Source: a virus
DNA: 64,000 nucleotides
Reading direction: 5' to 3' (one strand)
Virus record (IMG/VR): IMGVR_UViG_3300010354_000044
Coordinates: 62,001 to 126,000 of that record
This document shows positions 886 through 45,088 of this stretch, in pieces. The notes under the pieces were generated by a model that worked only from the letters and a program-made list of their open reading frames with translations, was not told where the DNA came from and did no database searches. The position numbers and the translations under genes are program-made. Within the stretch, counting starts at the first letter, position 1. Each line of letters opens with the position of its first letter.

Positions 886-1488
886 ATGGCTGTACGTCGC
901 GAATTTCAAGTCCTCTCTGCCATTAGCAGTGAAGAGGACGTGTTCGACAATCTCCTGCCCGTGCGGGATATAATCTCAGGCCTAGAAGGCCTGCTATTGT
1001 GTAGTGAGGCCTGTACGTGGCCTCAGGATTTGGTTTACGAAGCAACCTGGCTTGAGGGGTGCTATACTCCTCGGGCAGTTAAGGATGACCCTAGGCTGGC
1101 ACTAGGGTTTCATCCCTATACCGAGACACGGTGGAAATACCACTCAGGCGTCTTACGCCTGAGTACGCAGACTACGGAGGGGTGGATTTCGGTTATCAAA
1201 CGTACTAAACGGGCCATGATGGCCTATCTGGAAGGTATTCATCTTCCAGAGGTAGACCTCTGCGGGGTAGACCTTTGGAAGGCTGACCTTCGGGGGGCAA
1301 ACCTTCAGGGGGCAGACCTCAGGGGAGCTGACCTCCGAAGGGCTAACCTTCAAGGGGCTGACCTTCAAGGGGCTGACCTTCGAGGAGCTAAGCTTCTAGA
1401 GGCCAACCTTCTAGAGGCTGACCTTCGGGGAGCCGACCTTTGGGGGGCTTTAGTAGAGAAGGCCACCCTACAAAAGGCGAAGACCTAA
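886..1488 (+). CDS. Pentapeptide-repeat protein
   Basis: 200 residues from the ATG at 886, chosen because CTAGGAGA lies 3-10 nt upstream; the upstream in-frame ATG at 844 falls inside the structured leader. The first ~115 residues are unlike known domains. From about residue 117 to the end runs an uninterrupted series of (V/A)DL-x-G and ANL-x-G pentapeptides forming a beta-helix. Some pentapeptide proteins mimic DNA and bind gyrase, but nothing here shows that. Confidence 0.85.
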   Translation: MAVRREFQVLSAISSEEDVFDNLLPVRDIISGLEGLLLCSEACTWPQDLVYEATWLEGCYTPRAVKDDPRLALGFHPYTETRWKYHSGVLRLSTQTTEGWISVIKRTKRAMMAYLEGIHLPEVDLCGVDLWKADLRGANLQGADLRGADLRRANLQGADLQGADLRGAKLLEANLLEADLRGADLWGALVEKATLQKAKT

Positions 1489-1505
1489 AGTTACTTCCCT
1501 GCTTG

Positions 1506-3320: not shown

Positions 3321-3326
3321 GCTTTG

Positions 3327-3358
3327 ACCCAGATATGGGGTCGTTAAATATACGTATT
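3327..3358 (+). promoter_or_regulatory. H-type pseudoknot leader element, copy f
   Basis: GACCC/GGGTC stem, with GATATG (3332-3337) pairing with CGTATT (3353-3358) across GTTAAATATA. Directly precedes the giant gene; a TCCAGC/GCTGGA hairpin and SD follow. Confidence 0.6.
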
Positions 3359-3416
3359 CGGTTTGTCCAGCCCGCCCAAAGCTGGATTAGTAAATTATTC
3401 CCAAGGAGGGAACATC

Positions 3417-6400
3417 ATGGCTATTTTGACCATTCTTACCGTTACCGCTACTATCTCAGCCTCCGCCCCTGGGGCTAAGCCCAAAGCGCGTAAGCGCCCC
3501 AACCGTGCTGCACAAAAAGCACAGCAACGCAGGGCCGCATTCTTACGTCGTAAGCGGCAGTCCCGTAATGGGCGCCGCCCATTCCATGGGGTGCGGTATT
3601 GTAATATTGCTGATAGGCCCAAGGCCCGTCAGCAGAAGTTTTGGGCCCGTGCCCGTAAGCTGGGAGTTGCCAGGGAGGTAGCCCACCTCCTATGGATGGG
3701 CGACGACTTAGGCGCCAGGCGCGTCCTTAAGGAGGCCCGGCGGCGCTACCAAGTAAAGCGTAGCCTTGTGCTGCGCACCCCGGTTGATAGCCGGGGGGAC
3801 GAAGCTTTACAGGCCAGGCCCAGTCTAAAACCCTCCACCGGGAGGGTATTTGAGAGGGGCACTAAAGGGAAACCCCCACGTAACTGGGGGTTGACGAAAA
3901 AGTCCCAGCCAGAGCCTAGCTGGCGGGACTTCCTTGTTAAGGCTAGGGAGGTTCACCGGGACATCCTAGCTGACCTGGTTAGGGTCGTGGGTGGGGAGCC
4001 TACAGACACCGTTGTCTGTATGGCCCAAACCCCTCCTCCCCCTTCCCCCCAAGGGCGGCAGTCTACCCTCCAAAGGGTAAATGGGCTAGGGCTACCGTTT
4101 GAGCTGTCGGAGGACCAGCTCACCGCCCTAGACAAGATGCTGGCGTTCGCAGAGAGCCCGGCCCGTGGAGGTACCTTTACCTTAGAAGGGTACGCGGGTA
4201 CAGGTAAGACTACTTTGCTACCTATTTTCCTACGGTTACTGCCAAGGAATATCCGGGCGGCTACCGCAGTAACCGCGCTCAGTAACAAGGCGGCGCGTGT
4301 ACTGTCTGAGAAGCTACGGGGCCAAGGTTTACGTGTAGAGGCTTCTACCATTCACAAGCTTCTAGGTATTAAGGCTATCAAACAGAATGCAGAGATTCAG
4401 TTTGATAGGGGAGGGAGCTGCACTATCAGCGAAAACTTGCTCGTTATCGTAGACGAGGCGTCTATGCTGGGCGAGGTCTTATGGAACCATATGACTTCCT
4501 ACTTCAAGAGCATTAAGTTCTTATTTACAGGCGACCCAGCTCAGTTACCGCCTGTTAACGAAACTGGGGCTCCGTGTTTTAGCTTGGCTGATGACTATGC
4601 CAAGTTGACTAAGGTCCTTCGGCATGGCGGTCCAGTTCTACGTGAGTCAACGCTAGTCCGTGACCTGGGGCATGGTACTTACCACCCGGCTCAGTCGCTG
4701 AGTGAAGGTAATAACGTCTTCTGTTATCAGCACATTAACTGGTTTAAGGTCATTAGTGGGTTGGTAAGTGACCCTGAGAAGTGGGCCAAATTTACCGATG
4801 ATCCTAACTTCTTTAGGATTGTGGCCTGGCGTAACGCTAGGGTTGCTGAGCTAAATACCTATGTCCGCCAACTATTGCACGTAGGGAAAAAGCTGGAGCG
4901 TTTCATGGTGGGGGACCTTGTCATATTAGACGCCCCGTATGAAGACCTCTTTACAGGGGATGAGTTTTGGGTACGTGCTGTAAATAATGGCAAGGTTGAT
5001 GGCTGGAATTGCCTGGAGATTACCTTGGAACCGGTGCATGATGCAAAGGCTGAAACTATAGTACGAGTGCTTGCTGCGGAGGAAGCAAGCCGGTACAAGC
5101 AAGAGTCAGACCGGTTACGTGAACTGGCAACACAGCATGTTATTCCTTGGGCGGAGTACTGGGCGTTGCAAGAATTATTCGCAGGGCTCAGTTATGGCTA
5201 TGCTATGACAGTCCACAAGTCTCAAGGGTCTACGTTTCGTAACGTTCTGGTGGACTATAGCGACATCAAGTTATGTAGGGGTCTTGAGCTTAATAAGCTT
5301 ATCTACGTAGCTATAAGTCGTGCGTCTAAGAACGTCATTATGAACGTAGGCACGAGTCCCATTTATGAGCGGGTGAAACCTGCCGGGGAAATTGATACAG
5401 GACCGCCGGAAATACCAGAACCCCCGGTGGTGAATGCCCAGGAGCCTGTGGTAGAGGAGGCCCCGCCTACCTTGCCAGAGGAAGAGTCTGTTGCTGAGGT
5501 AGGCGCGAGCGTCTCTATTGCTGTTGCTCCACAAGAGCCGGCAGTAGAGGAAACTCAGGCTGCGCCTATTAACACAGGGCAGCCTGTGACGGAAACAACC
5601 ACGAAGGAGGAAACTATGTGGTTTGTAGAGATTGACGTAGCGGAACTCACGTTCTTTGCTACAAAGACCAATCATGCGGGTACATTCCCCGTCAACGGTC
5701 TAGAAGTCTTTAAGAAGGGCTTGCTAGGCAAGGGGTATAAGCTTGTGGAAACGCAAGTAGGCCCCGAAGGGGAGGAGCTTAAGCTCGTCTACGCTAAGCA
5801 GCCGCCTACGGCGCTTGGTGGAGAACGAGCCCCGGCTGACCCGCCTGACCAGCCGTTTGCTTCTGGCAACGTAGCCCAGTTCAAGCAGACGGTGCTGAAC
5901 TTTATTGCTCAGCGACTCGGGAAGCTGCACCAGCAGTATCCCGAGTCTGGTATGCGGGAGTTGATCGTCCGCATGACAGAGGCGATTAACTACAGCCCGC
6001 GGGATGCCTTCTTCGCCGCTCCGCTCAGTGACATGCTAAGTATGTGGGTATTTGAGGCGACCCACTCTAAGGAGCTTGGTAACCGGCCTATTCCGGTTAT
6101 TGAGAAGGAGGCTTACTACCTCTCTGGTAAGTGCCTCACTGGGCGCCCGTCGCTGATCGGAGACTTGGACCTTCTGTTGAGCCGCCAACGGCTTGACATT
6201 GAAGGCGATAGTTACCGCCTGCGGTATCCCATTGAGCAGGTAGAGGCGGCGATACTGGACGCTGAGGGCCGGGATCTCTATGAGGGTTACCGGGTTATCC
6301 TCAGCGAGGGTATCAAAAGCCACGCTGTCCTCAATGGTAACTTCCCCCACCTAGGGGTTGAAGTTGAGGATATGGCGGCAGCGCTGACTGTCCACCAGCT

Positions 6401-9400
6401 AGCGCCCAGTGCCTTTAGCTATGGCCTGCCTATCGTCAAGGCTGTGCTTGCAGAGCACCTGGCCGAGGTGCTTTGTCAACTTGGCTATAGCGAGGCTGTA
6501 GCAGGGATGGTAAGCATCCCTGCTGGGTGGAATCTGCCTTGCCCGCAGATGACTGTCGCTAAGCTCAAGAATATGCTTGAGTACATTAGCGACGTGTTCT
6601 CTTCTTTTGGTATCAAGGATTACGAGTATATCTCGTTGAGTCCTGATGCCACGGAGGAGAAGTTCACCGTGTACATCTGCGGCATTGAATTTGCCGTGGA
6701 TGCTCAAGGTGTAACCTTGGTTGACGCGCTGAATCAGAAGGCCATATACGCCACGTATATGGCCCTTCCTATTTGCCATAGAAGCATCCGGGAGGATGAA
6801 GGCGCTTTGATGAGCCCTCACGCGGTCTTCGCCTATATGCTAGCTGAGGTTGTCTTGCCTCTGCTAGTTCGGGTAGACCGTGATAGCTACCGGAATAGGC
6901 TGGTAGGTAGCAATGTCATGCAAACCTACTTCCGAGTAGCTGGGGCGGTAAACACGTATCTTCGTAATTACGTGTCTATTGACCTCCGTTCAGCTACCAT
7001 CGGTGAGCTAGACGACGCAGCAGAAGCCCGCAACCGGGGTGTCGTGGCAGTAGCCTTGAACTACCCCCGCTCCCTATACCGGGATGCTCTGCCTTCAGAG
7101 GTCAAGTCTGGCAATGGATTCTCCATGCTTAACGTAGGCCTTATGAAGGGAAACATCTACGTTGGGGGTGGCAAGGCTATGCCTTCTGAGCTCAGCGTAG
7201 AGGAACGGCAGAACCTAATCCTTGAGCGCGCTGCGCTTAAGACTTTGGGTTACGCTAACACTCAAGTAGTCCACAAGCGGATGCTTGAGCTCGGCTTCTG
7301 CCAAGAGCCGTTCGGGCGGATGACTGTGGTATCGCAGGACATCCATGGCATTAACTTCACAGGTCAGAAAGAAGCTGTGAAGGACTTCTGGGAAAGCCAG
7401 GGCGTCGTAGATGTCATGGAGGTGGCTGCAATCCTAGGCTGCAGAGCAGACTGGACGGAGATCGCGCGAGAAACTTTCGTCGCGTTGTCCAATAAGGGCG
7501 CTAAGCAGCTCAAGCGGACGGCCAACTTCTACCACAATGGCTGTATCTTCATTAGCCAGGCGGTGCAGGCGGCTCAGACCAACGGGGTCTTCAATGAAAT
7601 CAAGGCACTGGCTGTTAAGGCAATTATTGCCAACAGTGCTTTATTCGGTGGCCCTGGTATGGTTTGGGCTAACAAGCAGAAGATTCAGGACATGGGCATC
7701 CGGTACCGCACCGGTGGCCAGGTCTATGAATTCAGCTCCGAGAGTCAGCTGTACTGCGAAGGCTTCGCTTATGAAGCTCAGCATTATAACGAGCACTCCG
7801 GCTGGAACAGCGTGGAGCCTGTAGACCTCCATGTTGTAGAAGGCCGGCCCTTCGGCTTGCTCATCAAGCACGACGGGTACGAGGCAAACATCTCTGCAGA
7901 GCAGAGTGGCCAGGTCACTAAGATCATGTGGCGCTGGGTCACGAAGTTCAATGCCGAGGTGATGGAACTCCGGCTCATCTATGATAAGCGGGAGTATGGC
8001 GCCTTTAAGATCCGTAATGGCTACAAGGGCCTAGTTGCCTTCGTTGAGCCTGAACTGATCGGCAAGGGTGCTGACCTGGTTATCTTCGGGGATGCCAATA
8101 AAACCATGGACATTCTCTACTCCCGCCTACGGGAGGCCGCAGAGAGCTTCGTCCGGGTGCCCCGTGGAACTACCGTTACCCTTAACGGTAAGGACTATGA
8201 TCTCCGCGAGCTGCTGCGTTCATTGAACCAGCAGGCTGGTCCGGCCATGGGTATGGCTATTGAAGACTATGACAGGGATGATCGCCTGTTCATTGACTTC
8301 AAGCTGTTGGCTAAAGGCGCTTACGACATTGTAGGCGAGCTCTTTGAAGCTATCTTTGGCCAGTCCCACTGGTTCCGTTTTGATGGGCCCGACCTGGTCA
8401 AGTTCACGGCCCAGTATTACGGAGCCAAAGCGGAAGCCAACGAAGGCTGGCGTAAGCTGGTTCCTGCTGAGCTTAAGGGTCTAGGCTACCCGAACGCCGT
8501 CGGTTTTACCGATGGTAAAGTAAATGACCCGCATAGCAATGTGCTGGTTGTTGAAGAGGGTGTCGTGCACCACCGTTCCTGGGTCTATGCCGCTAAAGAC
8601 GGTATTGACCTGTATGTTCCGATTAAGCCGGAATATACCACCGTCAGCCAGAACGTGAACTATGCACCTTTGGCTCTCGGCCCTATTGTAGACCCCAGTA
8701 TCCCGACTGAGGTGGCCCGGGAGCTCATCCATGCTGGTGAGGCCAATCGGACCAAGTACACGCTTCTGCATATTTTGCGGAAGCATAGCCTGGGTCCTGT
8801 GGCGTTCACGATGGGTGGCGTTGAAGTGCAGACCGTAACTCTGGCTAGCACGGATACGTTTGCTGGCTTCTTTGGTGAGCATACCCAGATGCTTCAGCAC
8901 AAACGGGCCCTCAGCCGCACTAGTTTTGTACGCGCACTCTGCAACCTATTGCAGACTAAAGTGCTGTGCGTGGAAACTAGTAGATGGACCGAGAGTGGTA
9001 GGGTGATGGCTAACATTTACCTACCTCTGTTGTCCAGCTTTATCATCGGCTCGCTGGATGACCATGCCGATGAGAGCAGCCTCGCGGGTAATGCCTTCAT
9101 GTTCTTTGACATGTGGGCCGCGGGTGAATCGCTCAGTAGCCCAGCCATGGTCAAGATTGCAACTACCATAAGCAATCTGATCAGCAAGCTCTGCGACGGT
9201 AATCGTATGCAGAAGCAGCTGACCTATGGTCCTACCGCTGTAGGTGCGAAGTTGGGTGCATTGCCCATTATCCCCACTGGGGAGCTATGGGTGCTGCGTG
9301 GTGGCGAAGTGCATCGTCGCTTGAAAGTGCGCTTTGGCGATGCCATTAACAATGGCTACGTCATGATGGTGCGTGCGCCTATGACCCGTTCTTGCATCTG

Positions 9401-11942
9401 CAAACTGCGGGTTGTAGACGCTGAGCAGCGTGGGTTTGTACTAAACGGAGTGATGATGTATACATCTCCCTTCGGTCAGTACTTTAATCTAGGTGACTTT
9501 GACGGCGATGGTGTCTTTACCTATGACATCACTAAGTACGTCAACGCTGGGCTCATCAAGCAAGACTCCTACGAGTCTATGCTGGAGTTCCAGAAGTCCC
9601 TGCTCGGGTATGACATGATGTCCCCTGAGTTCTGGGGTTCTGGCGCCCCTGCTCAGTATTATGCAGACCACTATGACATTCCTAGCTACGCTGCTCTGCA
9701 GAAGAAGCTGGGTATGAAGTGTCTGGATAGCGAAGGGCGTTTGATGAACCCTGAGAAGGCCCATGTCTTTAACCGAAAAGCGTTTGAGCTAAGGCAGACC
9801 GGGGCATATGAACAGCAGACCCGGTATGTCTCTTCTTCTTATGGAGTAGAGTACTTTGCTCAGGTCTTTGCTGAGATCTGCCGGGCTATGGGCTTTAAAG
9901 ACTTCATGTGGCTGGCTGACCTAGCGCCGCAGCTGCAGTCCTTGTATGAGGTCGCCCTGGGTGGATACGACAACAACATGTTGTATGTCGCCTTTGGCCT
10001 TATGGACCGAGCCTATAACGGTATGAAGCATACGCCGCACTGGCTGAAGATTGTAGATGAAGATATCTACGATCGCTTCGTTACCGGCAAGACTCATTAC
10101 TACCGGCCTACGGCGTTTCTGAAGGATACTGAGTATACAGCCTTCACCGGGCTGCCCTTTACTGAGGTTCTTCCTTACATGCAGACCCTAGGCTTCTGCT
10201 GGAAGGATGGTAAGCGGGATGATGAGGCTATCCATGGCTTCATCAATGCCGCTATGCTCGCAGGGCTTGCTAAGGTTGCCCGAAAGCTTCCTAAGCCTGA
10301 AGACAGCACTAGCCCGGCTGCGATCGTAGACCAGCTGTTTGAAGATATGGTCGCTGTCTACGGGCGTGACTTTGCTACGGCTGTTCATATGGCGCAGATT
10401 ATCTGCGACACAAGCCGTAATAAAGATAATCAGCGGGGTGGTCAACTGTGCCGGCTTGTTCATGAGCACATGATTGAGCGTTCAGCCGTTGCGCTATTGT
10501 TCAAGCTCATCATGGATGCAAAGCAGCGTATTAACGCGCCCACGCCCGAGCTTAATATTAACGATGTCATTGCTTTGACTCGTTATATTGAGCTTGCTGA
10601 TGTCCTCTCTGAACAGGATGAGGAGTTCCTTGATGTACCTAGTACATCTGGGGAAGCTGCGGCAGAGCCTGAAGATGATAATCAAGGTGATGATGATGAA
10701 GGGGGCATTGCTGTGCCGGAGCCTACTCCGGATAAGCCCGGCCCTGCACCAGGAGCTGCTGAGCCCATTGAGGAGAGCCCTGCTGGTATTGTTCAAGAAG
10801 ATGCAGGATCTTGTATCGTACAAGATCCAGCTACTGTGGAGGTAAAATCCATGTACGTGCAGAACTGGTTCTCAAATATGCTCCCATTAGAAGTCCCAAT
10901 TAAGACTGACTTTGGGACCTTTCAAACGGTAGAGAACTACTACCAGGCTATGAAAACCCTAGACTTGGAGCAAAGGAAAATTATAGCTGAGCTATCTCCC
11001 CACGCTAGTAAGCGTTATGGTCGGCGTAAAATTCAATTACGCTCTGACTGGGAGCAGATCAAGCTAGCTGTTATGGAGGAAGCTCTTCGCAAGAAATTCG
11101 CTCCTGGGACTAAAGCCCTTGAGAGATTACTTGCAGAAAAAGGTGAGATAGTTGAATGGAATAACTGGGGTGATACTTACTGGGGGGCTCTTGCTACTTT
11201 AAGTAATGACGGAACAGTTATTCCTGTTGAGCCTCGTAAAGGCTGTAACCATCTTGGGCGTTTGCTCATGGCCGTTAGAGACGAACATTTAGCGGAGAAT
11301 AAAGTGACCGGAATATTTGACGTGCCCGCGCAGGTGCTGGTTAATCCAGTTAACTGCGGCGGTACCTGGGGCGGAGCTCTTTCCAAAGGGTTCATAGACC
11401 GATACCCAGAAAATACAGCCGCCCTCAAAGTGGCCTCTGAAGCCGGGTCCGTTAAGATAGGGCAGGTGTTAGTGACTGAGGAAGGGGGTAAGTTCATTGT
11501 GAACTTACCTACTAAGCTGGATGCTAACATCCCCAGCCGGCTCGTTGACATAGAAGCTGGTTTATACGCCTTACTAGCCTGGGCTCTGGTTAATAAGCCC
11601 AAATCCATTGCCATACCCGCCCTAGGGTGTGGCCTCGGTGGGCTTAAGTGGGAGGATGTGCTCCCAGTGATTAAACAGGTAGCCACGCTTATGGGTAACC
11701 ATGGTATTGTGGTTTACCTGTTTAACGACCGTGCCGAGCTAGTCACGGTTGACGGAGTTCCTGTCCAGTACGAGGAAGAAATCGTAGAGGAAGAGGTAGT
11801 AGAGCCCCAGCGTCCTACTCTTCCTAAGCTACCTACCCTCAAGCCTCCACAGGCTAACGATGAGGACGAGTATGTGGAGTATGTGGAGCAGGACCCCAAC
11901 ATGCCTGAAGCTGAAGTAGGGGGTCTCTTCAATAATCAATAA
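3417..11942 (+). CDS. Giant helicase / RNA polymerase-like / NADAR / macro fusion
   Basis: 2,841 residues from the ATG behind AAGGAGGG (an upstream TTG at 3363 is in the leader). Residues 1-230 are basic. A Dda/RecD-like SF1 helicase follows: Walker A GYAGTGKTT (~258-266), DEAS (346-349), GDPAQLPPV (from 372) and VHKSQG (from 599). After an acidic Pro-rich linker comes a ~1,700-residue module with RNGYKG (1533-1538), like the beta-barrel lysine loop, and RAP ... DFDGDG (2027-2032), matching the metal-binding loop of beta'-type double-psi barrels. A second acidic linker leads to a NADAR domain (~2483-2625; GDTYWG, NHLGRLLMAVR) and a macro domain (~2630-2790; NPVNCGG at 2643, IPALGCGLGGLKW from 2733), closest in motif to DarG. 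NADAR and DarG macro domains remove ADP-ribose from nucleobases in DNA. Both linkers contain a hairpin, an SD and an in-frame ATG (5616, 10851), so three genes appear to have merged; shorter products may also be made. Domain calls rest on motifs only. Confidence 0.85.
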   Translation: MAILTILTVTATISASAPGAKPKARKRPNRAAQKAQQRRAAFLRRKRQSRNGRRPFHGVRYCNIADRPKARQQKFWARARKLGVAREVAHLLWMGDDLGARRVLKEARRRYQVKRSLVLRTPVDSRGDEALQARPSLKPSTGRVFERGTKGKPPRNWGLTKKSQPEPSWRDFLVKAREVHRDILADLVRVVGGEPTDTVVCMAQTPPPPSPQGRQSTLQRVNGLGLPFELSEDQLTALDKMLAFAESPARGGTFTLEGYAGTGKTTLLPIFLRLLPRNIRAATAVTALSNKAARVLSEKLRGQGLRVEASTIHKLLGIKAIKQNAEIQFDRGGSCTISENLLVIVDEASMLGEVLWNHMTSYFKSIKFLFTGDPAQLPPVNETGAPCFSLADDYAKLTKVLRHGGPVLRESTLVRDLGHGTYHPAQSLSEGNNVFCYQHINWFKVISGLVSDPEKWAKFTDDPNFFRIVAWRNARVAELNTYVRQLLHVGKKLERFMVGDLVILDAPYEDLFTGDEFWVRAVNNGKVDGWNCLEITLEPVHDAKAETIVRVLAAEEASRYKQESDRLRELATQHVIPWAEYWALQELFAGLSYGYAMTVHKSQGSTFRNVLVDYSDIKLCRGLELNKLIYVAISRASKNVIMNVGTSPIYERVKPAGEIDTGPPEIPEPPVVNAQEPVVEEAPPTLPEEESVAEVGASVSIAVAPQEPAVEETQAAPINTGQPVTETTTKEETMWFVEIDVAELTFFATKTNHAGTFPVNGLEVFKKGLLGKGYKLVETQVGPEGEELKLVYAKQPPTALGGERAPADPPDQPFASGNVAQFKQTVLNFIAQRLGKLHQQYPESGMRELIVRMTEAINYSPRDAFFAAPLSDMLSMWVFEATHSKELGNRPIPVIEKEAYYLSGKCLTGRPSLIGDLDLLLSRQRLDIEGDSYRLRYPIEQVEAAILDAEGRDLYEGYRVILSEGIKSHAVLNGNFPHLGVEVEDMAAALTVHQLAPSAFSYGLPIVKAVLAEHLAEVLCQLGYSEAVAGMVSIPAGWNLPCPQMTVAKLKNMLEYISDVFSSFGIKDYEYISLSPDATEEKFTVYICGIEFAVDAQGVTLVDALNQKAIYATYMALPICHRSIREDEGALMSPHAVFAYMLAEVVLPLLVRVDRDSYRNRLVGSNVMQTYFRVAGAVNTYLRNYVSIDLRSATIGELDDAAEARNRGVVAVALNYPRSLYRDALPSEVKSGNGFSMLNVGLMKGNIYVGGGKAMPSELSVEERQNLILERAALKTLGYANTQVVHKRMLELGFCQEPFGRMTVVSQDIHGINFTGQKEAVKDFWESQGVVDVMEVAAILGCRADWTEIARETFVALSNKGAKQLKRTANFYHNGCIFISQAVQAAQTNGVFNEIKALAVKAIIANSALFGGPGMVWANKQKIQDMGIRYRTGGQVYEFSSESQLYCEGFAYEAQHYNEHSGWNSVEPVDLHVVEGRPFGLLIKHDGYEANISAEQSGQVTKIMWRWVTKFNAEVMELRLIYDKREYGAFKIRNGYKGLVAFVEPELIGKGADLVIFGDANKTMDILYSRLREAAESFVRVPRGTTVTLNGKDYDLRELLRSLNQQAGPAMGMAIEDYDRDDRLFIDFKLLAKGAYDIVGELFEAIFGQSHWFRFDGPDLVKFTAQYYGAKAEANEGWRKLVPAELKGLGYPNAVGFTDGKVNDPHSNVLVVEEGVVHHRSWVYAAKDGIDLYVPIKPEYTTVSQNVNYAPLALGPIVDPSIPTEVARELIHAGEANRTKYTLLHILRKHSLGPVAFTMGGVEVQTVTLASTDTFAGFFGEHTQMLQHKRALSRTSFVRALCNLLQTKVLCVETSRWTESGRVMANIYLPLLSSFIIGSLDDHADESSLAGNAFMFFDMWAAGESLSSPAMVKIATTISNLISKLCDGNRMQKQLTYGPTAVGAKLGALPIIPTGELWVLRGGEVHRRLKVRFGDAINNGYVMMVRAPMTRSCICKLRVVDAEQRGFVLNGVMMYTSPFGQYFNLGDFDGDGVFTYDITKYVNAGLIKQDSYESMLEFQKSLLGYDMMSPEFWGSGAPAQYYADHYDIPSYAALQKKLGMKCLDSEGRLMNPEKAHVFNRKAFELRQTGAYEQQTRYVSSSYGVEYFAQVFAEICRAMGFKDFMWLADLAPQLQSLYEVALGGYDNNMLYVAFGLMDRAYNGMKHTPHWLKIVDEDIYDRFVTGKTHYYRPTAFLKDTEYTAFTGLPFTEVLPYMQTLGFCWKDGKRDDEAIHGFINAAMLAGLAKVARKLPKPEDSTSPAAIVDQLFEDMVAVYGRDFATAVHMAQIICDTSRNKDNQRGGQLCRLVHEHMIERSAVALLFKLIMDAKQRINAPTPELNINDVIALTRYIELADVLSEQDEEFLDVPSTSGEAAAEPEDDNQGDDDEGGIAVPEPTPDKPGPAPGAAEPIEESPAGIVQEDAGSCIVQDPATVEVKSMYVQNWFSNMLPLEVPIKTDFGTFQTVENYYQAMKTLDLEQRKIIAELSPHASKRYGRRKIQLRSDWEQIKLAVMEEALRKKFAPGTKALERLLAEKGEIVEWNNWGDTYWGALATLSNDGTVIPVEPRKGCNHLGRLLMAVRDEHLAENKVTGIFDVPAQVLVNPVNCGGTWGGALSKGFIDRYPENTAALKVASEAGSVKIGQVLVTEEGGKFIVNLPTKLDANIPSRLVDIEAGLYALLAWALVNKPKSIAIPALGCGLGGLKWEDVLPVIKQVATLMGNHGIVVYLFNDRAELVTVDGVPVQYEEEIVEEEVVEPQRPTLPKLPTLKPPQANDEDEYVEYVEQDPNMPEAEVGGLFNNQ
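5557..5618 (+). promoter_or_regulatory. Internal hairpin, SD and ATG (module junction 1)
   Basis: AGGCTGC (5557-5563) pairs with GCAGCCT (5579-5585), then AAGGAGG (5604-5610) stands 5 nt before an in-frame ATG at 5616. This is a complete translation start inside the giant gene, at the end of the first acidic linker, and would start the RNA polymerase-like module at residue 734. Confidence 0.65.
10806..10853 (+). promoter_or_regulatory. Internal hairpin, SD and ATG (module junction 2)
   Basis: GGATCTTGTA (10806-10815) pairs perfectly with TACAAGATCC (10819-10828), followed by GGAGGT (10838-10843) and an in-frame ATG at 10851. It would start a free-standing NADAR-macro protein of 363 residues. 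Confidence 0.65.
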
Positions 11943-30077: not shown

Positions 30078-31139
30078 ATGAGAATGATAAGATTCCCTGA
30101 CGTTGGACAATTTAGGAATGTGGTCCAGTCACTTCGTCTGCGTGCTCAATTTGCAGGCAAGGCAGAGGATGGGACTCCTATTTATGACGAGTCAAGAAAG
30201 GCGCAGCCTGTTACCTTTTCTGGAACTGTAAAGCTTGATGGAACCAATGCTGCTATCTGTTTTGATGGCGAGAATACCTGGTTCCAGTCCCGAGAGAGGA
30301 TTCTTACCCTTGAAAGTGATAACTATGGGTTTTGTCGGAGATTTCAACAGGATGAAGCAGTTACTTCTTTGATTTCAAGTGTCACTGCAGCAGTGGAGTT
30401 TTCTAACGGGGAAACTCTTTGCATCTTTGGAGAGTGGATTGGAAAAGGCATTGCCAAGGGTATGGCCGTCTGTCAGATTGAGAGAGAGTTTATTGTTTTT
30501 GGCGTTGCTGTTTGCTCAGCCTTTGAAGGTGAACAGGCGGATGACTCTGCCTCTCTTAAGTGGATTGATTTAGGTACGCTTGATCAGGCGATTAAGGGTA
30601 GTGGCTTTGACACTGTTCTATCTTGTCCTCAGTATTTGCTTGTCGTTGATCCAGAGAATGCGGAGGCAGCCTGGCATACTGCAAAATCGCTAACTGACCT
30701 TGTTGTTAGTGAATGTCCATTTGGAAAGCTTCGCGGGAAAGTTGGAGCCGGAGAGGGTATTGTTTGGTTTGGTACTGATGATACTGGGAAAACTTTCCTG
30801 TTTAAAACCAAAGGGCAGAAGCAGTCTGTTGTCTCCTCTCCTAAGGAACTCCCTAAGTTTGAGGCTCAGGGTGCAATTAACACCTTTGTCACTGATGTAC
30901 TTACTGAGGCCCGGTTGAATCAAGGGATTGAGCGGGTCTTTACTGCAAACGACATTGTTCCGTCTATTGAAAAGACTGGCTCCTTCCTTCAGTGGATCAG
31001 CCGCGACATTGAAAAGGAGGAGGGTTTCTCTTTTGAGGCTCTTGCTGCTCTTGGTATTACCAAGAAGAAAGCTATGGGTCCAGTCAATCGTGCCGCTCGC
31101 GATTGGTTTATGGACTATCTAAACTTGTTGTCCCTGTAG
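30078..31139 (+). CDS. RNA ligase, Rnl2-like
   Basis: 353 residues, SD GAAGGTG. Seals RNA 3'-OH and 5'-phosphate ends through an adenylated lysine. Motif I is KLDGTN (near residue 53); GEWIGKGI (~130) matches motif III/IIIa, EGIVW (~233) motif IV and FLFKTKG (~248) motif V. The C-terminal 90 residues are helical. It fits with the Pnkp-type enzyme at 50866 and the tRNA genes. A GC-rich terminator follows. Confidence 0.85.
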   Translation: MRMIRFPDVGQFRNVVQSLRLRAQFAGKAEDGTPIYDESRKAQPVTFSGTVKLDGTNAAICFDGENTWFQSRERILTLESDNYGFCRRFQQDEAVTSLISSVTAAVEFSNGETLCIFGEWIGKGIAKGMAVCQIEREFIVFGVAVCSAFEGEQADDSASLKWIDLGTLDQAIKGSGFDTVLSCPQYLLVVDPENAEAAWHTAKSLTDLVVSECPFGKLRGKVGAGEGIVWFGTDDTGKTFLFKTKGQKQSVVSSPKELPKFEAQGAINTFVTDVLTEARLNQGIERVFTANDIVPSIEKTGSFLQWISRDIEKEEGFSFEALAALGITKKKAMGPVNRAARDWFMDYLNLLSL

Positions 31140-36869: not shown

Positions 36870-37631
36870 ATGTCCATAAGAAAGAATGTTATTAAACTGC
36901 CGGAAGAAGCTGGATTGGCCATGATTCTTATTCCGGGCGGGACCTTTACTATGGGTTCGCCTAAGAGTGAGTTGGGGCATGAACGTGATGAAGAGCCTCA
37001 GCATATTGTTACCTTAGAGCCTTTCTTAATGGGAGAGCATTTAATTACGCAGCATCAATGGCGAGCTGTGGCCAGTCTACCCAAGGTAGAGCGAGAGTTG
37101 GATTCTAACCCCTCTAGATTTGAAAGGGGGAAGTTTGACGGTCATTACTGCCCTGTAGAGGGAGTGTCTTGGGATGATGCTGTAGAATTCTGTGCTCGTT
37201 TGTCCGCCCATAGCGGGCAACTTTATACCTTACCCAGCGAAGCTCAGTGGGAGTATGCTTGTCGGGCTGGTACTGAAAGCCCTTTCTATTTTGGCGATCT
37301 CCTGACTAATAAGGCTAACTACAATGAGTTCCATAAAGGGCCTACTGATGTTGGGAGCTTTCCCCCCAATGCTTTTGGCCTTTATGATATGCATGGTAAT
37401 GTCTGGGAGTGGTGCTTAGATACCGGGCACGACAACTATGAGGGAGCTCCGACTGATGGTAATGCTTGGTTGACTGGAGGGGATAGTTCCCGTCGTATAG
37501 TACGTGGTGGTTCTTGGACTGATGATCCTAGGGACTGTCGCTCTGCCTGTCGGCTCCGGGCCCGCCTTGATAAGCGTTCCGACGACTTTGGCTTTCGTAT
37601 TGTAAGTCCAGCGACTAGCACTCGGGGGTAA
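36870..37631 (+). CDS. FGE/SUMF1-fold protein 2
   Basis: 253 residues, SD GAGGAGGG. GGTFTMGSP, PSEAQWEYACRAG, DMHGNVWEWC and the C-terminal VRGGSW ... CRSACRLR ... FGFRIV. The second Cys is four residues after the first, not five as in active FGE. Fold as in copy 1; binding rather than catalysis is more likely. A copy of the dispersed C-rich repeat lies just after the stop. Confidence 0.9.
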   Translation: MSIRKNVIKLPEEAGLAMILIPGGTFTMGSPKSELGHERDEEPQHIVTLEPFLMGEHLITQHQWRAVASLPKVERELDSNPSRFERGKFDGHYCPVEGVSWDDAVEFCARLSAHSGQLYTLPSEAQWEYACRAGTESPFYFGDLLTNKANYNEFHKGPTDVGSFPPNAFGLYDMHGNVWEWCLDTGHDNYEGAPTDGNAWLTGGDSSRRIVRGGSWTDDPRDCRSACRLRARLDKRSDDFGFRIVSPATSTRG

Positions 37632-37700
37632 TATATGATTACCCCTCCCCCACCCCACTGCTCCTAAAACCGGCAGACTGACCTTTATTTATTGACTAAC

Positions 37701-37856
37701 ATGGCTAACCAACAAGAGAAACTAGCTCGCTTGAAAGAGATTCAAGCCCGTATTCAAGAGCTAGAGAATGCTAACAGCAACTCTACAGAACTGGTACAAT
37801 TACGGGCAGAGAAAAATAAGTTGACGATTTCCCTGTACGGTTATATTGTCATTTAA
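37701..37856 (+). CDS. Small coiled-coil protein
   Basis: 51 residues starting MANQQEKLARLK; heptad-rich helix to residue 40, then SLYGYIVI. Good coding composition, no clear SD. Confidence 0.6.
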   Translation: MANQQEKLARLKEIQARIQELENANSNSTELVQLRAEKNKLTISLYGYIVI

Positions 37857-37873
37857 CGCTCCAGAGGTAAATC

Positions 37874-38161
37874 TTGCATACCTATAGATTCCTCCAACAT
37901 ACTCTCGTCTTAATTACTTACACCTGGCGCTGCGACGGAGGATGTTGTAGTAATGAAGAGGTGGTTTCTGAATCTTTTGAGAAAGGTGATTTGCTCGCCC
38001 TATATCAGCATCAACAAGGTTACTACCATTACTTGTTAGTGGATCTTGATAGCCCTGAGCAAGCTAGTCGGTTTGAGTATATGGGAAAAGATGCTATTCC
38101 TCGTATACATGAAGAAGAGATACAGGAATTAATTTCGGATGGTATCTTATGCCTTGCCTAG
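37874..38161 (+). CDS. Hypothetical protein
   Basis: 95 residues starting at TTG behind AGAGG. CDGGCC near residue 20 might bind a metal. Not recognised. Confidence 0.6.
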   Translation: MHTYRFLQHTLVLITYTWRCDGGCCSNEEVVSESFEKGDLLALYQHQQGYYHYLLVDLDSPEQASRFEYMGKDAIPRIHEEEIQELISDGILCLA

Positions 38162-38229
38162 ATTGCGCTATCTTTTTTCAATTCCTGCCCGTACGTCACG
38201 GGCATAGTCCAATTACTTGATGCAAAATA

Positions 38230-38781
38230 ATGCTACGCCACAACGGAAATTTCTGGCTAGCGGCCCTTGAGTCGCTAGCCTTTGTTTTAAACGCCCTGGT
38301 ATTAGGGCTGTATATTCTCATAGCTGTGACTACCCTAGTAGTCATGTTTTTGACATCTGCGAAAGCGCAGCGTTTTTATAAAACGGTTTGGTTGGCCATT
38401 CAATGGTCCGCCGAGCTAGTCTATTGGGTGAGTCTTCTAGGCCTACTAACGATTTACACTCGCCTACCCAAGGAAACCCAAAAAAAGGCTCCGCAGCCGG
38501 AAGTAGCTCAGATTACCATCCCTGAGGCCGCTAGTACAGAGGGTTTACCTGAGCCTGAGGCTGAGAATGTAAAGCACAGTCCTCAGCAGGATTCTCCTAA
38601 GGAAGAAGAAGAGCTAAGCTCTATAAGTCTTAAGGAGTTAAAAGCTCGCGCCCGAGCACTGAATGTTCCTAGGTACTCAAAGTACACTGCCTCTAACCGA
38701 ACGGAATTAGAAGAGTTGGTCTTTACTGCCCAACAAGAGTCGGCTTTATCCAGACCCACTTGCGTTGGGCAGCGTCTCTAG
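38230..38781 (+). CDS. Membrane protein with SAP-like tail
   Basis: 183 residues. Two TM helices (~16-40 and ~55-78), a disordered Glu/Pro linker, and a C-terminal SLKELKARARALNVPRYSKY ... ELEEL unit with the helix-extended loop-helix pattern of SAP/Rho-N motifs, which bind nucleic acid. It could tether DNA or RNA to the membrane. Its 3' end overlaps the convergent minus-strand gene by 59 bp. Confidence 0.7.
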   Translation: MLRHNGNFWLAALESLAFVLNALVLGLYILIAVTTLVVMFLTSAKAQRFYKTVWLAIQWSAELVYWVSLLGLLTIYTRLPKETQKKAPQPEVAQITIPEAASTEGLPEPEAENVKHSPQQDSPKEEEELSSISLKELKARARALNVPRYSKYTASNRTELEELVFTAQQESALSRPTCVGQRL

Positions 38782-39673
38782 GGCCGACTACGGTTCTACG
38801 CCAGTGCCCGCGGCGCCAATGCGTCGTTGGGCTAGCATGGTGGCCTATACCTTTGACTGCTGTGCGCCGTTCTACTACTGATGGAGTACTTAGCCACCGG
38901 GGGGACAGTACCGTAGAAGCCTTTGCGGGTCTTCTATTAATGTGTGCCCGAGCTGTTCCTACAGGCTGCTCCATTAAATCAGGCCTGTAGGTTAGAGTTA
39001 GCATTACTTGGATGACAATGCTCCTAACCCGGTCCGTAAACAGCCGGTCGGCCTCATTCATAGCAGTTCTACCCAATGATCGCTTTGGCTGTAGGATAGC
39101 GCCGCTTTCGTCAATACCAGAGCCTCCAAACCAGGTTGTATCACTAGCGTCATACCCTCCCCAGTGGAGGTTAAATGGAGCGTTATCTTCGGCCTGCAGG
39201 TCAGGAAGCACATAGCCAAAGCCCTCTCCATGGCTCGCTTCCATATTATCTCGGGAGGTTAAATGGACCACAACCCAATCTAATGGGCTTTTATCTGGGC
39301 TGACCAGACTATTGCAAGGGAATAATAGTAAAAATGTAGGTATAGGTGGGTGTAGATCTGCAAGTAATCCCTTGTCTACTGAGACGTCTGTGTGGTCAAA
39401 TGCCTGGAACAATTCTGTTTTGAGTGCATAGATGGGGGCCGCCTGCAGGAACCATAAAGCCAGGCGGTTGTTCACAAGATAGGTCGCCTGGTCTATTGTC
39501 TGCCGAGCTGTTGATTCATCCCGGTACATGGCCAGGCCGCTCCCCACCGCTGCACTTAACCTATTCCATTGGGTATAGCCCCGTGGAATCTTATAGGGCC
39601 TATGTTCGCGCACAAGGGCAATCTCGTTGGGTGCGAACTCGTGTTCTAAAAAGTTTAACGTCTCTGATCTCAT
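38723..39673 (-). CDS. Hypothetical protein with WRRGHWRR tail
   Basis: 316 residues, the only gene on the minus strand. The C-terminus THWRRGHWRRTVVGPRD...KWVWIKPTLVGQ is a motif I associate with plasmid- and phage-borne hypothetical proteins of unknown function. The rest is not recognised. It has no good SD and starts 15 nt from the divergent gene at 39689. No plus-strand gene occupies 38782-39688. Confidence 0.75.
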   Translation of the reverse strand: MRSETLNFLEHEFAPNEIALVREHRPYKIPRGYTQWNRLSAAVGSGLAMYRDESTARQTIDQATYLVNNRLALWFLQAAPIYALKTELFQAFDHTDVSVDKGLLADLHPPIPTFLLLFPCNSLVSPDKSPLDWVVVHLTSRDNMEASHGEGFGYVLPDLQAEDNAPFNLHWGGYDASDTTWFGGSGIDESGAILQPKRSLGRTAMNEADRLFTDRVRSIVIQVMLTLTYRPDLMEQPVGTARAHINRRPAKASTVLSPRWLSTPSVVERRTAVKGIGHHASPTTHWRRGHWRRTVVGPRDAAQRKWVWIKPTLVGQ

Positions 39674-39688
39674 GATTAGGAGGATCTA

Positions 39689-39964
39689 ATGAGGGCAATT
39701 ATAGTCTATCGGCATGGAGAGCCTTGGGAAGTATTTAAGAACTTTGCCGATGCTGCTGTTTATGTTAACAGTCAACAGAGGACTGGATTTGAGGATGTAG
39801 AAGAGCGAGTGGAGCCTTCCGAGTATAGAACAGACATGGTATGCATAGAAGGTCACGAAACTTATGGTATGGCCTCGCATTACTTCGAGTACAGAGATTG
39901 GATGGACAAAGAAAACGCCAATAACCTGTCTGAAGGACAATCTCTTACCAACATCATAGACTAA
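39689..39964 (+). CDS. Hypothetical protein
   Basis: 91 residues, SD TAGGAGG. First half beta/alpha (RAIIVYRHGEPWEVFKNF), acidic second half. Not recognised. Confidence 0.65.
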   Translation: MRAIIVYRHGEPWEVFKNFADAAVYVNSQQRTGFEDVEERVEPSEYRTDMVCIEGHETYGMASHYFEYRDWMDKENANNLSEGQSLTNIID

Positions 39965-39966
39965 TT

Positions 39967-40048
39967 GCCTGCAGCTTGCCTGTAATTAAGTAGCAGTTAT
40001 GCGACTATACCAGCCTAATTGTTACAACATTGCATGCAAGCTGCAGGC
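39967..40048 (+). other. Long-range 13-bp inverted repeat
   Basis: GCCTGCAGCTTGC (39967-39979) and GCAAGCTGCAGGC (40036-40048) are exact complements, enclosing 56 nt just upstream of the lipoprotein gene. Confidence 0.6.
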
Positions 40049-40079
40049 AAACCGTACTGTCAAATTTGAAAGGTTTTAT

Positions 40080-40214
40080 ATGCGCTGGATTTTAACTATT
40101 TTACTCAGCAGTAGTTTGATGCTACTCGCCGCTTGCGACGAACCGAACCGAGATGTTGCCCCTTCAGGCATGTGCTCCGTTAATGAAGAGCATACAAAGG
40201 GTTGCGCCGAATAG
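40080..40214 (+). CDS. Small lipoprotein
   Basis: 44 residues from the ATG at 40080. Signal peptide ending in lipobox LLAAC, leaving ~25 mature residues with two more Cys. A longer in-frame start at 39999 would run through the inverted repeat. Confidence 0.7.
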   Translation: MRWILTILLSSSLMLLAACDEPNRDVAPSGMCSVNEEHTKGCAE

Positions 40215-40223
40215 ATTGCAAAG

Positions 40224-40260
40224 CAACCACTAATCTAAGCTATTATTAAATTAGTGGTTG
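40224..40260 (+). promoter_or_regulatory. Stem-loop with AAGCTATTAT loop
   Basis: CAACCACTAAT pairs perfectly with ATTAGTGGTTG; loop CTAAGCTATTATTAA. The loop matches those of stem-loops H2-H4. It lies 4 nt before tRNA-Thr, so it may be a promoter rather than a terminator. Confidence 0.5.
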
Positions 40261-40264
40261 TCGC

Positions 40265-40336
40265 GCCGCTGTAGCTCAACGGCAGAGCACCCGCCTTGTA
40301 AGCGGGGGGTTCTGGGTTCAAATCCCAGTAGCGGCT
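40265..40336 (+). tRNA. trnT-UGU: tRNA-Thr(UGU)
   Basis: Acceptor GCCGCTG/TAGCGGC, D-stem GCTC/GAGC, anticodon CCCGC-CTTGTAA-GCGGG, T-arm CTGGG-TTCAAAT-CCCAG. CCA not encoded. Confidence 0.95.
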
Positions 40337-40361
40337 TTGTCCACAAATTTAAGGTATTGAA

Positions 40362-40694
40362 ATGACTTACACAGATTTTGACCGTGCTGCTGAACTCAGC
40401 GGTGATTTATCGGACGAAATGGCTGCTAAAGCAATTGCGGAAGCTGAATTAGAGCCTTGCTCTTGTTGTAACTGCACTAATGCTACCGTTTTTAGCCTCT
40501 ATGACGTTGTGCGGTATCCAGAATATGGCAAGGACGAGGGCGAAATTCATGCTATTGATGGAAATAAATGCGAGGTCTTTTGGCCCCGCAGGGGACTTAA
40601 AGAGCCTCATATTGAGTGGGTCGCTTCCTCTAAATTACAGTTCATTAGGAAGCCTAGAGACCCATACGAATGGATTAATAAATACTGGTTTTAG
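40362..40694 (+). CDS. Hypothetical protein with Cys cluster and SH3-like domain
   Basis: 110 residues. CSCCNC at residues ~33-38, then FSLYDVVRYPEYGKDEGEI ... CEVFW, an SH3/KOW-like small barrel. Possibly nucleic-acid or protein binding. Confidence 0.7.
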   Translation: MTYTDFDRAAELSGDLSDEMAAKAIAEAELEPCSCCNCTNATVFSLYDVVRYPEYGKDEGEIHAIDGNKCEVFWPRRGLKEPHIEWVASSKLQFIRKPRDPYEWINKYWF

Positions 40695-40781
40695 GACTGA
40701 GTATCTCCGCTGGCTATAGTTTGTACCATCCAAAGTATGAGCTGTAGCCACCGTTCAAGCTATTAATAAAGGTATTTTCTT

Positions 40782-40994
40782 ATGATTAAATGGGTTGGTT
40801 TGACTGCTTTTGTTGATAAGGAAGCAGTAGGCTGTGTTATGAACGTCAGCAATACATCATCTGCATCTTCTTGGGGTTACAGCTTCAAGCATAAAAATGC
40901 AGAGTTCTACGATAGCGGGTTTAGGTCAGAGGATAAAGCTAAGGAAGCATTTAAAGCAGCATTTAAGGCGGTCAGTCATGCGCCAGTTAAGTAA
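40782..40994 (+). CDS. Hypothetical protein
   Basis: 70 residues, basic and helical at the C-terminus. Overlaps the next gene by 17 nt. Confidence 0.6.
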   Translation: MIKWVGLTAFVDKEAVGCVMNVSNTSSASSWGYSFKHKNAEFYDSGFRSEDKAKEAFKAAFKAVSHAPVK

Positions 40995-41241
40995 AGCATT
41001 TAAATCACGGTTGGCAAAGTTTATCTACCGTTTACTTCTAGAAGGTGCAGAAATATCGCTTCCAGATGGCGACTATATACTAAAGCATAATGCGGCCTGG
41101 TTTACTTTAGGTACTGGAAGCCCGTACCCTATCTCTGTCCGCATCAGACTAGACGAGGATGTTTTCCGCGTAGATGTCTACAAATACCTAGAAGAGGGTG
41201 AGGACCCTATTCTATCCTACGACGGGACGATTGAATATTAA
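40978..41241 (+). CDS. Hypothetical protein
   Basis: 87 residues from the ATG at 40978, which coincides with the end of the previous gene. Basic N-terminus, beta-rich rest. Not recognised. Confidence 0.65.
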   Translation: MRQLSKAFKSRLAKFIYRLLLEGAEISLPDGDYILKHNAAWFTLGTGSPYPISVRIRLDEDVFRVDVYKYLEEGEDPILSYDGTIEY

Positions 41242-41254
41242 ACCGAGGTTTATT

Positions 41255-41518
41255 ATGACTTTTGAAGAGTTCAAGACTACTATCCAGAACCATGGCTTCC
41301 CTGCAGATTCTGGTCACTATAATAAATTTATACGCTTCTACGTATTTACAATCTACCCTGAGAAAATGGAGGATTTTGAGTTATTCCGTATTTTCTTTGA
41401 AAAGAACGAGTGGCGCGTATCCTCAAAGAAGCATGGACAGGATAAAAAGGAAACCCGTGAGCAGGAACTGCATAAAGCTTTAGAGGGGCATTATTGTACA
41501 CTGTTCGGCCTAAATTAA
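41255..41518 (+). CDS. Hypothetical protein, FxxF small-paralogue family
   Basis: 87 residues: TFEEFKTTIQNHG, FTIYPE, EWRVSS and an amphipathic end with ALEGH. Same layout as the genes at 24394 and 24879. Confidence 0.65.
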   Translation: MTFEEFKTTIQNHGFPADSGHYNKFIRFYVFTIYPEKMEDFELFRIFFEKNEWRVSSKKHGQDKKETREQELHKALEGHYCTLFGLN

Positions 41519-41533
41519 TTTGGTGTTGTAGCT

Positions 41534-41869
41534 ATGGTTAAAATTACGTTGCAGCAGAATTTAGAAATGATTAAGAAAATCAGAGAATTGATAACTGGGC
41601 GCAGCGCCCTTGAAAGAGTCGTAACAGCAATTGACAGATTAGTTAGTGACTCAATGCTTGCCGGTAATTATGATCGCATACAAACTGGCGTACCCGAGGT
41701 TGCCAAAGGGCTAGATGCTGAGGATTACTCGTTGCTGTTGCGTGTCCTTAAGTATAAAATCCAAAGAGATAAAGCTCCAGCAGCTGCGCCCTTTTATGAA
41801 GAAGCACTTAAGTGCGCTATTGCATCCCGCCTTGATTATTTTGTTCTAGAGGATAGAGCTAATGGTTGA
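41534..41869 (+). CDS. Hypothetical helical protein
   Basis: 111 residues, nearly all helix. It overlaps the following FGE-fold gene by 8 nt. The N-terminal ~95 residues of that next protein are also helical, so the two may interact. Confidence 0.65.
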   Translation: MVKITLQQNLEMIKKIRELITGRSALERVVTAIDRLVSDSMLAGNYDRIQTGVPEVAKGLDAEDYSLLLRVLKYKIQRDKAPAAAPFYEEALKCAIASRLDYFVLEDRANG

Positions 41870-42887
41870 CTCCCAACAAAATGATAGTCGGTATCCGTAT
41901 ACCTACGCTTGGGACTACTTACGCGGTATCTGCGAAGGGAGTGTGTCAAGATCGGACGTCGCTAAAATAATGGAATTCTTAAGCGAGCTCTTGGGGAATG
42001 CCCTAAATCTCTCACCCAGCGAATTAGCTGAAGAGCTGGCAATTAAGATAGCTGACTATGCGCAGGCAAATCCTCATGACCCGCAAGTACTCGTAGACAA
42101 TGCTTCGCGGCGCCTCAATAAACCCACGATTACTGAAAAGGCCGATTCTATACAACCGGTGCCTGAAGTAATCACCATTAACCTACCAGGCGGGGTAGAG
42201 TTGGAAATGGTCGCTATTCCAGAAGGGAGTTTTCTCATGGGCTCCCCTGATGATGAACTAGGGCGTAGTAAAGACGAAGGTCCGCAGCATCAGGTGACTA
42301 TAGCTACCTTCCTAATGGGTAAATACCCTGTTACGCAGGCGCAGTGGCGTGCGGTAGCCGATCTGCCCCAGGTGGAATATTATCTGAATCCAGAGCCATC
42401 AAATTTTAAGGACGATAAATGCCCAGTTGAACAAATTACCTGGCATGAAGCTTTGGAATTTTGTGCTCGGTTATCCAAACTAACCGGTAAACCCTACACC
42501 CTCCCCAGTGAAGCCCAGTGGGAGTATGCTTGCCGGGCCGGTACCGCTACCCCATTTTACTTTGGCGAGACCCTTACCACTGACCTAGCTAATTACGATG
42601 GTGATTACATCTATGAACTCACCGAGGTGGGTAGTTTTCCTCCCAATGCCTTTGGCCTTTACGATATGCACGGCAATGTGTTTGAGTGGTGTTTAGATGT
42701 ATGGCATGAAACTTATGACGGTGCCCCGGTTGACGGAACTGCTTGGGTGACAGACGGGGACAGTTCCATTCGTGTACATCGTGGCGGTTCTTGGGACGAC
42801 GAACCTGGGAACTGTCGCTCCGCCTATCGGAGCAACGACTGGTCCTACAGCCGTGAGGCTTTTACCGGCTTTCGTATTGTGGTGTAA
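41862..42887 (+). CDS. FGE/SUMF1-fold protein 3 with helical N-domain
   Basis: 341 residues: a helical N-domain of ~95 residues, then the FGE-like domain (EGSFLMGSP, PSEAQWEYACRAG, DMHGNVFEWC, HRGGSW ... CRSAYRS ... TGFRIV). The second active-site Cys is absent. The extra domain is unique among the four copies. Confidence 0.9.
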   Translation: MVDSQQNDSRYPYTYAWDYLRGICEGSVSRSDVAKIMEFLSELLGNALNLSPSELAEELAIKIADYAQANPHDPQVLVDNASRRLNKPTITEKADSIQPVPEVITINLPGGVELEMVAIPEGSFLMGSPDDELGRSKDEGPQHQVTIATFLMGKYPVTQAQWRAVADLPQVEYYLNPEPSNFKDDKCPVEQITWHEALEFCARLSKLTGKPYTLPSEAQWEYACRAGTATPFYFGETLTTDLANYDGDYIYELTEVGSFPPNAFGLYDMHGNVFEWCLDVWHETYDGAPVDGTAWVTDGDSSIRVHRGGSWDDEPGNCRSAYRSNDWSYSREAFTGFRIVV

Positions 42888-42960
42888 TGCCCAGGGTGTT
42901 ATTTAGACCAAGCAAAATATTGCGTCTTTGTTTTACCTCAACCCTTAGGAGGATTAAATA

Positions 42961-43167
42961 GTGAATCTAGAGTTACCCCATCTGGCGCTATACCGTGCGA
43001 TCAAGGGTAATTTGACGTACTGGTTAGCGCCGGGGGCTAACTTACCAACAGTAGGAGTACTGATGGAGGTTAGGCAGCGGTGGGAAATGCTTAAGCCCTA
43101 CGTCATTAACAAAAACCATAGAGCAATAGATAATGGCTTGGCTTTGGTGGAGCGTCAATTAAAATAG
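42961..43167 (+). CDS. Hypothetical protein
   Basis: 68 residues starting GTG behind AGGAGG. Helical. Lies between two FGE-fold genes. DGR target genes are often next to small accessory proteins, but there is no specific similarity. Confidence 0.65.
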   Translation: MNLELPHLALYRAIKGNLTYWLAPGANLPTVGVLMEVRQRWEMLKPYVINKNHRAIDNGLALVERQLK

Positions 43168-43219
43168 CGGCTCTTGGCATAAGCGAAGAGACATAACACT
43201 ACACAGAATAGGAATAATT

Positions 43220-43993: not shown

Positions 43994-44007
43994 CCCGGCT
44001 AGCCTGC

Positions 44008-44216: not shown

Positions 44217-44252
44217 CTACCGTTGTAAATACTTCTGTTTAATAAAGAGTCA

Positions 44253-45015: not shown

Positions 45016-45088
45016 CTGCGGGTGCTAAGCTAATCCTAGGCCCTGTTATATAACAAGGCCTAGGTACTTTAACCTTTGGAGGTATACT

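Follow-up and report, generated by a model that had tools for sequence, protein, structure and literature searches.

Several of the elements described here are already known from phages, including single-chain RNA polymerases (RNAPs), pairs of virion (vRNAP) and non-virion (nvRNAP) enzymes, and NADAR and macro domains. Thermus phage P23-45 encodes two single-chain DFDGD/DYDGD proteins, one of them giant: the nvRNAP gp64 and the tape-measure-fused vRNAP gp96. The giant DFDGD vRNAP transcribes the pre-early genes from AT-rich promoters, and the gene of the smaller nvRNAP is among them (PMC10770324). Other single-chain RNAPs are YonO of Bacillus phage SPbeta and the two-barrel gp66 of the crAss-like phage phi14:2. 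On the side of host defence, DarT1 and DarT2 ADP-ribosylate guanine and thymine of single-stranded DNA, which stops the phage from replicating its DNA, from transcribing it and from synthesising RNA (PMC11543638). NADAR reverses the modification of guanine and DarG that of thymine (PMC11125620). Here we describe a gene, P1, in a 64,000-nucleotide stretch of viral DNA (positions 62,001 to 126,000 of the 172-kb IMG/VR virus record IMGVR_UViG_3300010354_000044; hereafter the window). Its product fuses a helicase, an RNAP-like core, a NADAR domain and a macrodomain in one chain, with the catalytic motifs intact. With moderate confidence we read P1 as an early, non-virion, single-chain two-barrel RNAP that belongs to a new, highly divergent lineage and is joined to a helicase, NADAR and a DarG-type macrodomain. 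Neither the union of these domains in one chain nor the lineage of the core was found in the libraries, phage records and literature searched.

The P1 frame lies on the plus strand and measures 2,859 amino acids (aa) from TTG 3363 to position 11942, or 2,841 aa from ATG 3417 (3417–11942). The ATG is by far the likelier start, because a Shine-Dalgarno sequence, AAGGAGG, stands in front of it at 3403–3409, and TTG 3363 falls at a stem-loop in the leader. Residues are numbered here from the ATG, except where P0001 numbering is named, which counts the frame from TTG 3363 and is higher by 18. A basic N-terminal extension (3417–4091; 51 K/R versus 16 D/E in 225 residues) is followed by a superfamily 1 Dda/RecD-like helicase domain (4092–5375; P0001 residues 244–671). 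This domain was assigned by PHROG 325 (Dda-like, E 1.6e-77), by Pfam AAA_30 and UvrD_C_2, and by the positions of its motifs GYAGTGKTT, VDEASM, GDPAQLPP, MTVHKSQG and YVAISRA, which leave Walker A and B and motifs III, V and VI intact. Against the RecD2 equivalog model (NCBIfam TIGR01448) it stays below the full-length curated cut-off, with 80 of 500 bits.

Near the C terminus, a NADAR domain of YbiA type (10863–11285; P0001 residues 2501–2641) matches Pfam NADAR (E 2.1e-18) and YbiA (2b3w, E 1.1e-13). In the alignment to YbiA it keeps ENYYQAMK and IVEWNNWGDTYWG, the E..D..W element; catalytic roles have been assigned to E and K of ExYYQAxK and to E, D and W of the last element (PMC11543638). 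The adjoining macrodomain (11313–11726; P0001 residues 2651–2788) is closest to DarG (PADLOC DarG 7.8e-34, NCBIfam DarG 2.5e-31, PDB 5m3i 2.3e-19 and 5m31 2.1e-17). Its NLPTK aligns with the TKK segment of 5m31, which would place the lysine at the position of DarG K80. Only the macrodomain of DarG is present (109 bits against an NCBIfam cut-off of 250), not a full-length, DarT-adjacent DarG. P1 thus resembles the DarG macrodomain and YbiA/NADAR at the level of domains and retained catalytic residues; unlike in those proteins, both share a chain here with a helicase and an RNAP-like core. Two acidic, proline-rich linkers, at 5376–5672 (20 D/E and 14 P in 99 residues) and 10590–10847 (25 D/E and 11 P in 86 residues), set the helicase and the NADAR/macro pair apart from the middle of the protein.

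That middle is the RNAP-like core (6075–10601; P0001 residues 905–2413). The earlier note had pointed to two RNAP-like barrel motifs some 490 residues apart in one chain, and their positions, order and separation were borne out. RNGYKG occupies residues 1533–1538 (nucleotides 8013–8030) within FKIRNGYKG (8004–8030), which contains two lysines and is a candidate for the motif of a beta-like barrel. Downstream, within a candidate beta'-like barrel (DPBB-A, 9180–9662), the R-x-P element RAPMTR (9372–9389) begins with RAP at residue 1986 (nucleotide 9372), and DFDGDG, a candidate Mg-binding aspartate triad, spans residues 2027–2032 (9495–9512). The distance from RAP to the aspartate is 41 residues, and that from K1537 to D2027 is 490. 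The DNA word encoding GDFDGDG, GGNGAYTTYGAYGGNGAYGG, occurs once in the window, versus 0.00 expected from window shuffles.

A scan for N-x-GDFDGD returned one homologue of the core, a 1,829-aa open reading frame (ORF; L090:7494–12983) in the 207,855-base record of a sister phage, G001. BLASTP aligned the two at 34% identity across 1,573 aa (E 0), with both motif blocks kept. Invariant between them are FK-x-R-x-GYK, GDANKT, KPEYTTVSQ, RMQK-x-LTYGP, VRAPMTR and SPF-x-QYFN-x-GDFDGDG. In the homologue RAGYKA (within FKLRAGYKA) stands in place of the first motif, so that the conserved part is F, K, R, G, Y and K of FK-x-R-x-GYK and not RNGYKG. Identity rises to 55% across the DFDGDG region, among the best-conserved stretches of the core, versus 36% overall, and peaks at P0001 residues 1940–1979 and 2060–2099. 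Further scans with FNxGD[FY]DGD, YYADH, YEVALGGY and alignment-based patterns returned no third member, and relatives of the core were found neither by single-sequence search of viral contigs nor by tblastn against 50,697 phage records. Downstream of the G001 homologue lie arrays of a 21-base repeat (GTGAAAGTCCTTTTAGGGCCC and variants; L094:13570–22060).

As sufficient evidence for an RNAP, the DFDGDG signature was rejected, the motif being common among calcium-loop decoys. A scan for GDFDGDG returned 44 viral stretches, most of which resembled dockerin/VCBS-type calcium loops or unrelated proteins. This frequency speaks for a rival explanation in which the core would be no polymerase at all but part of a large early protein whose fold is unknown, with DFDGDG either a metal- or calcium-binding loop or a product of chance. 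The surroundings of the motif argue otherwise. Across 17 reference RNAP sequences, R-x-P precedes the aspartate motif by 35–43 residues: 35 in RpoC, 35–39 in twelve beta' sequences from phage records, 38 in gp64 and gp96, 39 in phi14:2 gp66 (DFDID) and 43 in YonO (DNDGD). The spacing is 41 in P1 and 44, one residue beyond the reference range, in the G001 homologue. In contrast, none of 28 distinct GDFDGDG decoys had R-x-P at 35–41 residues, the interval examined for decoys and narrower than that of the references. Position 12 of the loop is I or V in P1 and its homologue, versus E or D in a calcium loop; the DFDGDG block is strongly conserved between the two; and a second giant DFDGD protein exists in the same phage, as does one in Microcystis phage Ma-LMM01 (see below). 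We therefore consider the non-polymerase explanation unlikely, even though the profile comparisons and structure predictions yielded no signal beyond the motif.

Both members of the pair also carry FK-x-R-x-GYK upstream of the aspartate motif, in the expected order, with no match to an rpoB profile. P1 and YonO are collinear over 73 residues (30% identity, in register), a stretch that includes G-x-[DE]VH..L, GY[IV]...R[SA]P and DxDGD, represented in YonO by G..VH..L, GYI..LRSP and DNDGD. P1 thus carries the DxDGD motif typical of two-barrel RNAPs, and the location of that motif in a barrel is a candidate assignment. Because the block is kept in a homologue of 34% identity, R-x-P is spaced as in RNAPs and in no decoy, and the YonO stretch is collinear, we regard the middle of P1 as probably a two-barrel RNAP.

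Other results weigh against this reading. The core has no match in Pfam, PHROGs, NCBIfam or PDB; no Pfam model, that for the QDE-1/eukaryotic RdRP family included, hits it at E<=1, the sequence of QDE-1 itself not being part of the comparison. Of 100 motif-preserving shuffles, 13 scored with YonO as high as the core did, which puts its score within the null; YonO also differs in its length of 839 aa and in having no fused domains of the kinds in P1. A beta' profile built from RpoC and the twelve phage-record sequences placed R-x-P on R-x-P and DFDGD on DFDGD of P1 (E 0.0084), a score matched by 92 of 100 motif-preserving shuffles, and the same profile scored gp64 and gp96 clearly (P 4e-5). A gp66 profile from 80 viral loci gave P1 a score of 17, at the level of decoys (14–21) and in the wrong register. 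Phi14:2 gp66 shares with P1 the single-chain architecture and an R-x-P 39 residues before its motif, and differs in the aspartate motif itself. The earlier suggestion of kinship with YonO or gp66 is hence weakly favoured for the former by the collinear stretch and finds no support for the latter. AlphaFold, given only two sequences, produced no usable fold for the core pair (1,171 aa) or the DPBB-A stretch (161 aa). With pLDDT (predicted local distance difference test) values of 29.5 and 37.7, neither barrels nor another fold could be read, probably because the alignment was too shallow. Foldseek and VIA listed no RNAP for the DPBB-A model, which is uninformative at such model confidence. Finally, helicase, NADAR and macro domains are missing from the chain of the G001 homologue and had no match in the G001 record (an empty search being weak evidence), so that one metagenomic genome is the sole known source of the whole fusion. 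The RNAP reading of the earlier note therefore gains from spacing, conservation and collinearity with YonO, and lacks a significant match past the motif.

A further alternative is suggested by the Dda/RecD-like helicase that P1 contains: the core might be a two-barrel enzyme with another activity, primase-like or a replicative polymerase, and would replicate with the helicase rather than transcribe. Archaeal PolD indeed shares the two barrels and two-barrel catalysis (PMC10770324). Replication genes, in contrast, lie elsewhere in the record (clamp loader and DNA helicase matches; DNA polymerase was not searched for), and no PolD-like match was obtained among Pfam models. We judge this alternative improbable.

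The same record encodes a second giant protein, P0002, from a 3,051-aa ORF at record positions 37354–46509 (L009:354–9506). It contains a single DFDGD, lies near the portal gene and beside structural genes, and shares 42–46% identity with a protein of 3,363 aa in G001. BLASTP of P1 against P0002 revealed no relation apart from the motif. Analogy with the P23-45 pair makes P0002 a candidate virion polymerase and P1 the presumptive non-virion one. The parallel extends to an AT-rich pre-early motif in front of the gene for the nvRNAP and to R-x-P 38 residues ahead of the aspartate motif. Unlike in P23-45, where the giant is the tape-measure protein, the giant here adjoins structural genes; gp64 has 616 aa and is without helicase or ADP-ribose domains; and the P23-45 proteins show no detectable sequence relation to P1 past the motif. 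The helicase, NADAR and macro domains and this second giant, which lies outside the window, were all missed in the earlier note and are the more informative parts of the system.

The leader of P1 fits the same comparison, its motif adding a 5-bp palindrome to the AT-rich element. The record contains seven copies of YGACY-N9-RGTCR with (T/C)TAAATA immediately behind it, all on the plus strand and confined to record positions 61,675–65,325. Six are in the window, versus none expected: at 195–220 (record 62195), 1504–1529, 2093–2118, 2212–2237, 2658–2683 (ahead of ORF 2687) and 3325–3350, the last directly upstream of P1. The seventh is outside, at record 61675. The paired leader motif that the earlier note had proposed as a promoter or control element is thus real, with seven copies rather than two, and the position and clustering of the copies fit pre-early promoters. 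A second stem-loop and a strong Shine-Dalgarno sequence lie downstream of at least three copies. Before P1 the stem-loop is CCAGC...GCTGG (3367–3385, plus strand, read from the sequence), just ahead of the Shine-Dalgarno sequence; the same stem-loop precedes ORF 2687, and a variant, CCTAG...CTAGG, is found at about 2250. Co-variation of the palindrome arms at two of five pairs does not exceed that in shuffles and lends weak support, and sliding the arms abolishes the palindrome. No such palindrome was found in those parts of G001 that were searched. The early block with P1 (window 1–22000) has a GC content of 50–55%, and window 22001–64000 one of 40–49%; the block also encodes, at window 1200–1490, a pentapeptide-repeat-like protein with ADLRGADL repeats.

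These observations suggest a scheme of four steps. An injected virion polymerase, most likely P0002, would start at the palindrome–TTAAATA elements and transcribe a pre-early block that includes the P1 gene. P1 would then transcribe the next class of genes, its helicase part opening or clearing the template. Where host DarT1 or DarT2 had tagged bases, guanine would be freed of ADP-ribose by NADAR and thymine by the macrodomain, letting transcription proceed, with replication following it. With one eraser of each kind, a helicase and a probable polymerase in one chain, P1 is most simply read as a machine for early transcription that rids its template of such tags. We nevertheless advance only tentatively the full proposal of a transcription-coupled counter-defence, in which P1 cleans DarT-modified template while transcribing and is itself switched on by a virion polymerase at hairpin-type promoters. 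Published work also speaks against the scheme: the NADARs T4 gp30.3 and YbiA gave no in vivo rescue from DarT1 (PMC11125620), and it has been proposed that the main targets of phage Macro/NADAR domains are small ADP-ribose molecules (PMC9503650).

The latter proposal favours another explanation, in which the core is a two-barrel RNAP and NADAR and the macrodomain serve a general role against NAD/ADP-ribose signals or in RNA repair, fused to it for early co-expression only. The acidic, proline-rich linkers would suit such an arrangement, resembling flexible tethers, and the record holds a polynucleotide kinase/phosphatase/RNA-ligase protein (740 aa, window 50839–53061) and a separate RNA ligase (30078–31139). 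In contrast, the macrodomain is nearest to DarG, a type that removes ADP-ribose from DNA; the two erasers jointly cover both DarT base specificities; and a template-reading fusion partner favours a nucleic-acid substrate. We consider this general role rather doubtful. If the preferred reading of P1 as a polymerase with DNA-directed erasers is true, P1 adds a very divergent lineage to the single-chain RNAPs, would be the first case that we know of in which a polymerase, a helicase and both types of DNA-ADP-ribose-removing domain share one chain, and would link phage transcription directly to the defeat of DarTG defence.

P0002 also leads to phages beyond this record. It is collinear with gp080 of Ma-LMM01 (NC_008562, L014:201–10889), a 3,562-aa uncharacterised protein annotated as hypothetical (BLASTP E 2e-8), in which we found R-S-P and NLGDFDGD. 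The DFDGD lies ahead of the BLASTP-aligned segment in both proteins, by about 220 residues in P0002 and about 210 in gp080. With P1, gp080 and its giant relatives share N-(L/M)-G-DFDGD, and profile comparisons gave P values of 5e-5 and 1.5e-5 over 20–25 columns; this match is dominated by the motif, and unlike P1 these proteins have at least about 3,000 aa and look like P0002. A transcriptome study of Ma-LMM01 assigned all transcription to host SigA, gp080 being absent from its main text (PMC5780444). The RNAP-like motifs of gp080 would contradict such full dependence on the host RNAP, a conflict open to experiment. If our reading is right, the Ma-LMM01 group of Microcystis phages, regarded as fully reliant on the host enzyme, may carry a virion polymerase in gp080. 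Further giant phage proteins of up to 3,500 aa, on other viral contigs (L064, L066, L067, L072, L075, L080, L081, L083 and L086), carry N-[LIF]-GDFDGD with R-[SA]-x-P or RAG-x-P ahead of it and apparently form a diverse family of virion-polymerase-like proteins. Around position 2000 of L043, an open ORF of 3,206 aa with FTGGDFDGDGITKFMVDE represents another giant RNAP-like candidate.
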